The notes under the pieces are model-generated. The model did not search any database. It was given only the letters and a program-made list of their open reading frames with translations, and had not been told where the DNA came from. A stretch of DNA of 64,000 nucleotides from Formicincola oecophyllae (GTDB taxonomy: Bacteria > Pseudomonadota > Alphaproteobacteria > Acetobacterales > Acetobacteraceae). The stretch covers positions 62,001 to 126,000 of the forward strand of contig NZ_CP038231.1 in NCBI RefSeq assembly GCF_006542395.2. The letters run 5' to 3'. A program made the translations under genes and the position numbers. Shown here piece by piece: positions 45,434-49,881 of this stretch; the stretch's first letter is position 1, and the number at the start of each line of letters is the position of its first letter.

Positions 45434-46074
45434 GGCATTGCCTTGGCATGGTGGTGGGGGTTGGCGGCACTTGGCAGCGCCAAGTCCACAGCGCAGCCTG
45501 GGCCGTTCCAGTTCAAGGCCCCCCCTGACGAAGCCAGAACGTGGCCTTTGCCATCAATAGCCAGCGTCGTTGGCAAATCAAGTTCCTCCTCCTGGGCAGC
45601 CTTGGGGAAAACCCTCTCCAGCGTGGCGTCATCCATCACCCAGGGCGTGATGGCCTGCCCAGTCTGGCTAGGCTGCCAAAGGTGGTGGGCGCCCAGCCAC
45701 GCCGCCACTTTGGCTGGGGCACCGCTGTCCATGGCGGCGGTCACGACCTGCACACCTGGGCAGCGCTCCTTGAAGTGCTGCAGGTGCGGCAGTTCAAGAA
45801 TGCACGCTGGGCACCATGTGGCCCATAGGTGCAGGTACCACACAGCTGGTCTGTTCCCACGCGGGGCGGTGGGTGGCAGCGGCAGCTTCTGGCCATGTGG
45901 CCCTGCGAGCGCGGCCGGGACCGCCGGCCCACTGGGCGCGGCGCAGGCGGGGTGGTAGGAATAGCCCCAGACACCCCTCAGAAGGCAGCCAACCAGAACG
46001 GCCCTGGCCAGCGCACTTCTGAGGGCACAAACCTTCCCCCCACCCCCAGCAGGCAGTGAACCCCCCATGAGCAT
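45430..46074 (-). CDS. TlpA/ResA-like thioredoxin-fold protein
   Basis: Exported or membrane-anchored thiol-disulfide reductase. A hydrophobic signal or anchor (~17-45) leads to a thioredoxin domain with the active site WCPAC in [14 protein letters not shown] (~86). DLPTTLAID carries the cis-Pro. I chose ATG 46074, since GGGAGG lies 8 bases upstream of it; ATG 46068 is less well placed. This start lies inside the 5' end of the divergent argH as drawn. Its role could be apocytochrome c reduction or periplasmic disulfide repair; there are no ccm genes in the window. Confidence 0.82.
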
Positions 46075-47503
46075 CGACAAATCCTCCCCTTCCTCCCCGA
46101 AGGCCAGCAAAGGCGCTCAGGCCAACATGCAGTGGGGTGGACGTTTTGCTGCTGGCCCCGCCGCCATCATGAATGAGATCAACGCCTCCATCAGCTTTGA
46201 CCAGGCGCTGTGGCGGCAGGATATCAGGGGTTCTCTGGCCCATGCGGCCATGCTGTGCAAGGTCGGCATCATCAGCGCTGATGACCTCAAGGCCATTGAG
46301 GGGGGGCTGGCTGGGATCGCTGCCGAGATCGAGCAAGGTACCTTCCCCTTCTCTGATGCCCTTGAAGACATCCACATGAACATCGAGGCCCGCCTTTCCG
46401 AACGCATTGGCGAAGCCGGCAAGCGCCTGCACACGGCGCGCTCACGCAATGACCAGGTGGCGACCGACTTCCGCCTCTGGGTGCGGGACGCCATCGATGG
46501 CGTGGTGGCGCAGACGGAATCCCTCATGGCCACCCTGGCCAAGCGCGCGCTGGAGAACGCAAGCCAACCCATGCCGGGTTTCACCCATTTGCAGATCGCC
46601 CAGCCTGTAACGTTTGGCCACCACCTCCTGGCTTATGTGGAGATGCTAGGCCGCGACCGCTCCCGCTTGCTGGATGGGCGCAGGCGCCTCAACCAATCCC
46701 CCTTAGGGTCGGCTGCGCTGGCTGGAACGTCTTTCCCCATCGACCGCCATATGACAGCGCAGGCCCTGGGGTTTGATGGCCCCACGCGCAACTCGCTTGA
46801 TGCCGTTTCAGACCGTGACTTCGCGCTGGAGTTCCTGGGCGCGCTGTCCATCCAGGCCATGCACCTCTCCCGCTTGGCGGAGGAAATCGTTCAGTGGACG
46901 TCCACCCCATTCAACTTCGCTAGCCTTTCTGACGCCTTCACCACGGGTTCCTCCATCATGCCGCAGAAGCGCAACCCGGATGCGGCCGAGCTGGTGCGCG
47001 GCAAAACAGGGCGCATCACGGGGGATTTCATCGCACTGCTGACGGTGATGAAGGGCCTTCCCCTGGCCTACGCCAAGGACAGCCAGGAGGACAAGGAACC
47101 GGTGTTTGACGCTGTGCGCGCCATCACCCTTTCCCTGGCGGCCATGGACGGCATGGTGGCTGACATCACCCCCAACAGGGAGCGGATGCGGGAAATGGCT
47201 GGTGCTGCCTTCGCTACCGCCACAGACCTGGCTGATTGGCTTGTGCGGGAATTGAAAGTGCCATTCCGCACAGCGCACCACGTCACCGGGCAGCTGGTAG
47301 CGATGGCGGAAAAACGCGACGTGGCGCTGGAGCAGCTCCCCCTTGAAGATATGCGCACAGTGGAGCCACGCATCCACCAAGGGATCTACAGCGTTCTGGA
47401 TGTGGATTCCTCCCTGGCCAGCCGCACAAGCTTTGGCGGCACGGCGCCTGAAAACGTGCGCTGTGCTGCCCAGGAATGGCTGGCGCGCCTTAACCAAGCC
47501 TGA
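46067..47503 (+). CDS. argH: Argininosuccinate lyase
   Basis: Splits argininosuccinate to arginine and fumarate. The fumarase-superfamily signature [12 protein letters not shown] (~297) holds the catalytic Ser loop, and WGGRF (~23) and HTARSRNDQ (~123) are family blocks. ATG 46067 gives 478 residues but has no good Shine-Dalgarno; ATG 46127 would give 458 residues starting just before WGGRF and would remove the overlap with the divergent tlpA-like gene. The small LptM-like lipoprotein gene follows, a conserved alphaproteobacterial pairing. Confidence 0.94.
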
Positions 47504-47623: not shown

Positions 47624-47794
47624 ATGAAGCCAGGACAACGCCGTGAGATCGCCCTATGGCTGTGCCGCCTTATGCTGGGCGTGATGGTTTCCACCATGGC
47701 GCTGAGCCTCACCGCCTGCGGTAAGGAAGGCGACCCCCAGCCGCCAGGGCCGGCCAATGAAATTACCTACCCTCGCGCTTACCCGCCTGATTGA
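47624..47794 (+). CDS. Small LptM/YifL-like lipoprotein
   Basis: A 56-residue lipoprotein precursor. A basic N-terminus and hydrophobic segment end in the lipobox LTAC, and the mature part begins CGKEGDPQPPGP, rich in Pro and Gly. Small lipoproteins of this kind sit between argH and lysA in many alphaproteobacteria; E. coli LptM (YifL) aids LptD maturation. ATG 47624 has GGAAAG ~10 bases upstream. Here lysA does not follow. Confidence 0.75.
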   Translation: MKPGQRREIALWLCRLMLGVMVSTMALSLTACGKEGDPQPPGPANEITYPRAYPPD

Positions 47795-47852
47795 GGGGCT
47801 GGGTCTGAAAAAGCTGAACTCAGGGCGGGGAAAGAACCCTTCATCCTTAGCT

Positions 47853-48266
47853 TCAGCGTTCAGCCAACAGAGCACTGGCTGCCCTGAGCTTCTCCAGCCT
47901 GGGGCTGGGCCTGAGGCCCAGGAAGCAGAACACAACCGCTGCTATGCTGATGGCTGAAAGCAGCAGGTTATACCCTATGTCATACTGGCTGAGCCACGCT
48001 GCCCCACCAGGGAATCCCACGCCTTTATAAAGGGCCAGATGGCTGACATTACCTACAGTCATCACCACAATCAGGCAGTACGCAAGCGTTTTGAACACTT
48101 GAACCCTGCGTTCCACCTCAAGCTGCTGGTTGCGGAGGGAAATCATGGCGTGGTGCTGTTGCCAAAAGCCTTCAAAACCATCCTTTGCCGCTTTCTCCAA
48201 GGCGTTCTGCGCACATTGGCGGGCTTCTTCACGGCTGATGGCTGGTTTCATGTTTGTGGATGACAT
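47853..48266 (-). CDS. Hypothetical two-helix membrane protein
   Basis: I do not recognise this 137-residue protein. A charged, helical N-terminal part (~1-55, Ala/Gln/Glu/Arg-rich) precedes membrane segment 1 (~60-78), a ~25-residue loop with Gly/Pro, membrane segment 2 (~98-117) and a short basic tail. No enzyme motif or signal peptide is seen. ATG 48266 is supported by GGAGG 7 bases upstream. It lies between the LptM-like gene and another small two-helix protein, where lysA would normally be. The layout resembles small 2TM families such as SLATT-type proteins, but I cannot claim that. Confidence 0.65.
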   Translation of the reverse strand: MSSTNMKPAISREEARQCAQNALEKAAKDGFEGFWQQHHAMISLRNQQLEVERRVQVFKTLAYCLIVVMTVGNVSHLALYKGVGFPGGAAWLSQYDIGYNLLLSAISIAAVVFCFLGLRPSPRLEKLRAASALLAER

Positions 48267-48280
48267 AAGTCCGCCTCCCA

Positions 48281-48295
48281 CCCCCACTAAGGGGG
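48281..48295. other. 5-bp GC hairpin next to the Shine-Dalgarno of the 47853-48266 gene
   Basis: CCCCC (48281-48285) and GGGGG (48291-48295) surround the loop ACTAA. On the minus strand it ends directly upstream of the GGGAGG ribosome-binding site of the small membrane-protein gene and might modulate access. On the plus strand it is followed by TTTT and could act as a weak terminator. Confidence 0.35.
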
Positions 48296-48501
48296 TTTTA
48301 AGAACAATCCAACAAAACGTTGTTTTACGTTCCACCTCAAGGGCAATTTTACCCTAGGCCACCAAAACTCCCTATAGCCCGTGAATGGTCTCCACAGGTT
48401 TCCAGAAAGAAAACACAAACCCTTAAAGCGATATCTTAAACCAATTTCTGATTTCAGAGATGTGCTTTAGTTAAGGGCTGAGAAACAGGAAGTGAGCGAG
48501 T

Positions 48502-48942
48502 TTATTCAGTGCGGTAACGTTTCTGTTCCTCAGGAGAAAGGCCCAGGAACACTAGAGCACCATTTAAAATAGGCATTCGTCTAAACGAACGAATGTTATA
48601 GTATATCCATCCAAAAACACTTAACATTGTAATGCCTATATAAATTTTAGCCAAAAATTTAGACCCAAAAATGAAAACAAATGCCTGGTGACTAGACAAT
48701 TTGTTCCCTGACAACGCTGTTTGAACGGTTAATATTAAGGTTATCAACGAGATGAGCCCCGTCATTATACTAATAAGGTAAGTCCAAAACTCCCATGAGG
48801 TATTGTCACGCATAGTTTGCTTTTTAGATTCTAAATACAATTGTGCGTAATGTACCTGGGCTTCAGGTGAATTAAATCCAAGCTCACTTGCCCCCTTAAG
48901 GGCGCTGTCAACTGCCTTTAAAACTTTTTGTTTCTTGTTCAT
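48502..48942 (-). CDS. Hypothetical two-helix membrane protein (low GC)
   Basis: An unrecognised 146-residue protein. The N-terminal ~50 residues are soluble and Lys/Gln/Glu-rich, membrane segment 1 is ~53-74 (Ile/Leu/Thr-rich), a loop follows, segment 2 is ~95-115, and the tail is basic, ending SPEEQKRYRTE. The DNA is about 35% GC by hand count over 48541-49020, against ~60-70% around it, and codon use is AT-rich, so it is probably acquired. Its topology resembles the neighbouring 137-residue protein. The Shine-Dalgarno is weak (GGAT). Confidence 0.65.
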   Translation of the reverse strand: MNKKQKVLKAVDSALKGASELGFNSPEAQVHYAQLYLESKKQTMRDNTSWEFWTYLISIMTGLISLITLILTVQTALSGNKLSSHQAFVFIFGSKFLAKIYIGITMLSVFGWIYYNIRSFRRMPILNGALVFLGLSPEEQKRYRTE

Positions 48943-48978
48943 TCGAGCAATCCAAAATTTGAATAAGACTACATTATT

Positions 48979-49872
48979 TTACCCTAAAATGATGTTGTTT
49001 AACATATTATGAATTTCTTGTTTGGATAGGCCTTTCTCGAAATAAAAATCCTCCCTAACAGCTGGGCTGTTGCGGCTTTTGGAGAGCTTGTGACCGTCAG
49101 CCCCCATGATGAGGGGATGGTGGGCGTAGCGCGGCGCTGGCCAGCCCATGAGTTCCTGCAGAACACGGTGGATGACTGTCAGGGGTTCCAAGTCCTGCCC
49201 GCGCGTGACAAGCGTTACCCCCTGCAACCAGTCATCATGGGTGACGCACAAATGGTAGGAAAGGCCAGCGTCACGCCGCGCTAAAACAACATCGCCCCAG
49301 GATGCGGCATCTGCTGTTCTTTTCTGGAATGTGTTGTCGCCTGTCAGCTCCAGCCAAGTGGGGTTGCCCCCAAGGGTTTCAAGCGCTTTGTGCATGTCCA
49401 AGCGCCACGCTGGTTGGTGCCCTTTGGTCATAATTGGGGGGCAGCCAGATTGGGGGCGGCAGGTGCCAGGGTAGCGCAGGCTGCCATCTGGCGCGCGCGC
49501 GCCAGCAGTGCCTGCGGCATGGCTGATGTCAGCCCGGCTGCAGAGGCAGGGATAGATGAGCCTGCGCTCGCGGAGAGTGTCCAAAACAGCGTCATAATCA
49601 GTTTTATGGCGTGATTGGCGCCTGATGGAAGTTGGCGGTTCTGGCAGCAGGCCAAGCCAAGCCAAATCATCCAGAACGCCCTGCACGTTTTCCTCAGTGC
49701 AGCGGGCTTGGTCGATGTCCTCCAGCCGCACCAGGTAGCGGCCGTGGGGGGCAGCCAGCGTGCGCGCATGAAGGGCGGAGGCCACATGCCCCTTGTGAAG
49801 TCTGCCTGTGGGGCTGGGGGCGAAGCGCGTCACCCAGCCAGACGGGGGGTCGCTTTTCATAGCGCTTGGCAT
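48979..49872 (-). CDS. gluQ: Glutamyl-Q tRNA(Asp) synthetase
   Basis: Truncated glutamyl-tRNA-synthetase paralogue that charges queuosine of tRNA-Asp with Glu. RFAPSPTGRLHKGH carries the HIGH-type motif (~16-29), zinc ligands are in CLC and YPGTC (C-x-C ... Y-x3-C) and KLSKS is the KMSKS-type motif (~264). The product has ~297 residues from ATG 49872; a TTG at 49878 is nearer to an AGG. The last ~25 codons are AT-rich, unlike the rest of the gene, so the 3' end has probably been exchanged with the adjacent islet while keeping a functional frame. Confidence 0.9.
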   Translation of the reverse strand: MPSAMKSDPPSGWVTRFAPSPTGRLHKGHVASALHARTLAAPHGRYLVRLEDIDQARCTEENVQGVLDDLAWLGLLPEPPTSIRRQSRHKTDYDAVLDTLRERRLIYPCLCSRADISHAAGTAGARAPDGSLRYPGTCRPQSGCPPIMTKGHQPAWRLDMHKALETLGGNPTWLELTGDNTFQKRTADAASWGDVVLARRDAGLSYHLCVTHDDWLQGVTLVTRGQDLEPLTVIHRVLQELMGWPAPRYAHHPLIMGADGHKLSKSRNSPAVREDFYFEKGLSKQEIHNMLNNIILG

Positions 49873-49881
49873 GGTCAATGG

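Follow-up and report, generated by a model that had tools for sequence, protein, structure and literature searches.

A probable accessory islet of two orphan membrane-protein genes at a variable argH-gluQ junction in acetic acid bacteria

The window analysed here is a 64-kb stretch of DNA in which the genes recognisable between 42 and 54 kb are, by reading, housekeeping genes (DnaQ-, CoaE-, AroE-, ArgH-, GluQ-, TatD-, MetG- and HolB-like). Within this setting, a preliminary description had announced two same-strand genes of 137 and 146 residues, and both open reading frames are indeed found, at 47853-48266 and 48502-48942 on the minus strand. They occupy the interval that separates the stop codon of a small lipoprotein gene from that of gluQ, as laid out below.

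46067-47503, plus strand: argH, left flank of the junction
47624-47794, plus strand: small lipoprotein gene (LTACGKEGDPQPPGP...YPRAYPPD), found after argH in relatives as well
47795-48978, no strand: inserted interval from the lipoprotein stop to the gluQ stop, 1184 bp, whereas most relatives with a preserved junction have about 60-145 bp here
47853-48266, minus strand: orphan gene 1, encoding P0001 (137 aa), with a long N-terminal helix predicted on the cytoplasmic side, TM1 at about 59-79, a loop, TM2 at about 98-118 and a basic tail
48283-48302, plus strand: hairpin CCCCCACTAAGGGGG with a trailing TTTT on the plus strand, a possible terminator just upstream of orphan gene 1, read directly from the sequence
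48502-48942, minus strand: orphan gene 2, encoding P0002 (146 aa; GC 0.379), with a short N-terminal helix, a 'GF' break, a long helix running into TM1 at about 53-77, a loop, TM2 at about 89-113 and a basic tail
48973-49001, minus strand: promoter-like site TAAACA-17-AATAAT (9/12) upstream of orphan gene 2, a match to consensus only
48979-49878, minus strand: gluQ (glutamyl-Q tRNA(Asp) synthetase-like), forming the right flank, AT-rich and diverged in its final codons

When sequences were drawn from a first-order Markov model of the stretch, an ATG-initiated frame of the length of P0002 arose in 2 of 2000 and one of the length of P0001 in 44 of 2000, so that P0001 taken alone is the weaker gene call; its Shine-Dalgarno sequence is good (GGGAGGCGGACTT-ATG). 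The hairpin at 48283-48302 received no terminator call from the scanner, its T-run being under the threshold. Hydropathy predicts two membrane helices in each protein and concurs on the helix boundaries with single-sequence AlphaFold2 models, which place helices at 12-80, 89-115 and 122-136 in P0001 (mean pLDDT 67.8, pTM 0.34) and at 3-20, 26-77, 84-121, 124-132 and 137-145 in P0002 (mean pLDDT 77.6, pTM 0.38), the packing of these helices being unreliable given the low pTM values. In both models a long N-terminal helix leads into TM1, a loop connects this to TM2, and a short helix forms the tail; prediction thus bears out the earlier depiction of two small two-helix membrane proteins of the same design. 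Lysine and arginine residues number 8 and 8 in the two N-termini, 1 and 1 in the loops and 5 and 6 in the tails; this distribution predicts that both termini are inside (N-in/C-in), and P0001 and P0002 are accordingly best viewed as putative inner-membrane hairpins with cytoplasmic N- and C-termini.

The segment 48541-49020, for which about 35% GC had been claimed, measures 35.4% against 62.7% for the window, and this dip is the sole one of such size in it: 480-bp bins average 0.627 (sd 0.038), the 19 lowest all start within 47881-48961, and the lowest bin elsewhere stands at 0.54. Most of the low GC comes from the P0002 gene and its flanks, and the codon-adaptation value of this gene is 0.33 compared with 0.60-0.70 in the flanking genes. 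P0001, with a GC of 0.551, a GC3 of 0.63 and a codon-adaptation value of 0.56, is close to host values and only mildly unusual, so that the deviant composition looked for in a horizontally acquired islet is clear in gene 2 and slight in gene 1. The final gluQ codons (48979-49060) are themselves AT-rich and align poorly to relatives (FYFEKGLSKQEIHNMLNNIILG), which gives the impression that the AT-rich segment starts within gluQ. Elsewhere in the same genome, a 9362-bp contig (C3, our locus L113) has a GC content of 38.8% and carries a large glycosyltransferase-like ORF beside genes for a resolvase/invertase-like protein and, possibly, for replication; it is perhaps a plasmid, in a GC composition class similar to that of gene 2.

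In eight other genera (G008, G022, G025, G037, G046, G048, G061 and G069) argH, the lipoprotein gene and gluQ meet tail to tail with no other gene in the gap, the distance between the argH and gluQ matches amounting to about 170-430 bp, lipoprotein gene included; deeper members of the family are uninformative on the junction since argH and gluQ lie apart there. The best-sampled related genus (g55; 26 species, 25 of them with gluQ) shows the site in both states: it is empty in 17 of the 25 species, with 80-145 bp between the lipoprotein and gluQ matches, and filled in the other 8, where gaps of 0.3-2.8 kb hold unrelated contents. Two of these species carry CRISPR-like arrays of 61-bp period at the junction (L085:790-1299 and L087:2395-2917; units GTGTTCCCCGC...GCGGGGATGAACCG); a DUF4357 protein and a GGACT protein are found there in G054, and by reading the same genes in G236, while G446 and G187 have a Hint-domain protein and a GGACT-like gene, joined in G446 by a GNAT gene. 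None of the fillings in this genus resembles P0001 or P0002 by reading, nor was one matched in searches with both proteins. Because 17 of the 25 sites are empty and 8 hold unrelated fillings, we regard this junction as a variable insertion site, and its repeated filling with unrelated DNA supports an accessory reading of the interval without pointing to an insertion mechanism.

Both proteins had been called unrecognised, and the profile and fold searches that we ran returned no family for either. In 397 genomes of the family, neither each protein singly nor a two-sequence profile detected a relative: non-self matches were seen in 18 genomes at E <= 0.1 for P0001, in 3 at E <= 0.02 for P0002 and in 6 at 0.05 for the profile, where about 40, 8 and 20, respectively, are expected by chance from the per-genome E-values. 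The best P0001 match (L004) has the look of a generic hydrophobic protein in a different context and was set aside. A search at one genome per genus found nothing for P0001 or P0002, the genus itself being represented by one genome in the comparison. GTDB contigs, IMG/VR viral contigs, phages and plasmids gave no match to either protein, the GTDB and IMG/VR negatives being the weaker ones because back-translated short peptides detect close relatives only. Matches in Pfam, NCBIfam, PHROGs and PADLOC were sub-threshold for both, those in the PDB (sequence and fold) and BFVD (fold) reached E 0.18 at best, and Rfam gave no credible match; in the genome itself, a second copy or a mobile repeat did not rise above chance. 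The best Pfam match of P0002, EMC3/TMCO1 (PF01956), has an E-value of 0.0088 and, at 16.3 bits, stays below the cut-off of 27.1. We treat it as noise, since 2 of 10 segment-preserving shuffles of P0002 gave a match to some Pfam family that was no weaker (E 0.0031 and 0.0067).

We therefore read the interval 47795-48978 as an accessory islet of two membrane-protein genes, with a probability of roughly 85%: the junction is empty in relatives and neither gene was found in the other genomes compared, which sustains the term islet used in the preliminary description. The insertion is real, though as accessory insertions go a fairly ordinary one, and it is best described as an islet of orphan genes in a variable junction, a kind that is already known. 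ORFans in variable intergenic chromosomal sites share with it a restriction to a single lineage, a deviant composition, an empty site in relatives and other cargo elsewhere; here, the search for an integrase or other evident mobility gene, border repeats, a known donor, a partner gene, or a defence or toxin-antitoxin link for the pair came back empty. An islet of about 1.2 kb, restricted to this lineage, would have entered a nearly empty junction at which the argH-lipoprotein unit and gluQ meet tail to tail. Gene 2, its AT-rich half, has the appearance of foreign DNA that was acquired, so the islet may be at least partly foreign, although the near-host composition of gene 1 counts against this scenario; gene 1 could be older, ameliorated or from another source. 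Judging from the helix plan, the two proteins would most likely form oligomers in the inner membrane by way of their N-terminal helices, and would serve as accessory membrane factors that are dispensable, derive from mobile elements and belong to an exclusion, immunity or defence-effector type. Such a role is plausible for an accessory orphan membrane pair, and no partner, family or fold favours a specific one; a conflict or exclusion role is, on its own, doubtful. The combined statement, namely a lineage-restricted accessory islet of two hairpin proteins with an exclusion-, immunity- or defence-type role, falls in our estimation slightly short of even odds.

One may ask whether both frames are genes at all. 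The frequency of P0001-length frames in random sequences, the want of a homolog for either protein and the flat positional GC of P0002 (0.39, 0.36, 0.38) would fit at least one of them being spurious, P0001 more so than P0002; yet frames of the length of P0002 are rare by chance, P0001 has its good Shine-Dalgarno sequence, and the hairpin plan recurs in both frames by hydropathy and in the models, so that we hold this quite unlikely. The two genes could be diverged tandem paralogs, a lineage-specific paired 2TM family forming a hetero-oligomer: plan and length are alike, 27 columns are identical when the proteins are aligned with MAFFT, among them AL..A...GF towards the N-terminus and FLGL.P towards the C-terminus, and the global alignment score of 30 (shuffle mean 10.5, sd 5.3) was reached in 20 of 3000 shuffles that preserved the composition of each hydropathy segment. 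However, BLASTP gave no alignment at E <= 100, the local score was equalled in 120 of the 3000 shuffles, and GC and codon usage differ strongly, which is unexpected after a recent duplication. The pairwise comparison is thus suggestive of a distant common origin and short of proof: the likeness noticed earlier stands as a weak one, paralogy is unproven, and tandem paralogs forming a hetero-oligomer seem to us possible, if on the unlikely side.

Known systems had also been brought up as likenesses, and neither sequence nor fold searches lend support to SLATT, holin or toxin relatives, nor does a partner gene adjoin the pair. Like class II holins (N-in, C-in, two TM), P0001 and P0002 fall in the right size class and have a basic tail and a hairpin topology, here predicted only, and their AT-rich orphan DNA would suit holin or superinfection-exclusion genes left by a phage; but PHROG, IMG/VR and phage records hold no match, a lysin, an integrase and an att-like repeat are all absent nearby, and the long cytoplasmic N-terminal helix sets them apart, so that a phage remnant is unlikely. 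A SLATT-like pair (SMODS- and SLOG-associating 2TM effector), that is, effectors that form nucleotide-gated pores in a conflict system, would share the general layout of a charged helical N-terminus followed by two TM helices, and one viral model annotated as SLATT came up in the fold searches at E 1.2, a noise level. SLATT domains have been described in multi-gene conflict systems (PMC7159879), whereas the neighbours here include no signal-generating gene of the nucleotide-signal, SLOG or SMODS kind, Pfam gives no SLATT model at E <= 10 and PADLOC gives none; we consider this very unlikely. An equally long shot is that the pair, as diverged tandem 2TM partners, makes up an undescribed two-component membrane system guarding against phages or rival bacteria, which would then be stored at a junction that holds CRISPR-like arrays in related species.

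Two added orphan membrane proteins settle no open question by themselves. In acetic acid bacteria, unrelated cargo has come in repeatedly at the argH-lipoprotein/gluQ junction, CRISPR-like arrays among it, and this makes the junction a cheap spot at which to seek small accessory genes in the group. A GGACT-like gene sits at the junction in four species of the best-sampled related genus besides the two with arrays (L110:1931-4767, L111:2135-4583, L109:3397-4908 and L062:7635-9146), accompanied by a Hint-domain protein in L110 and L111, by a GNAT gene in L110 and by a DUF4357 protein in L062 and L109.
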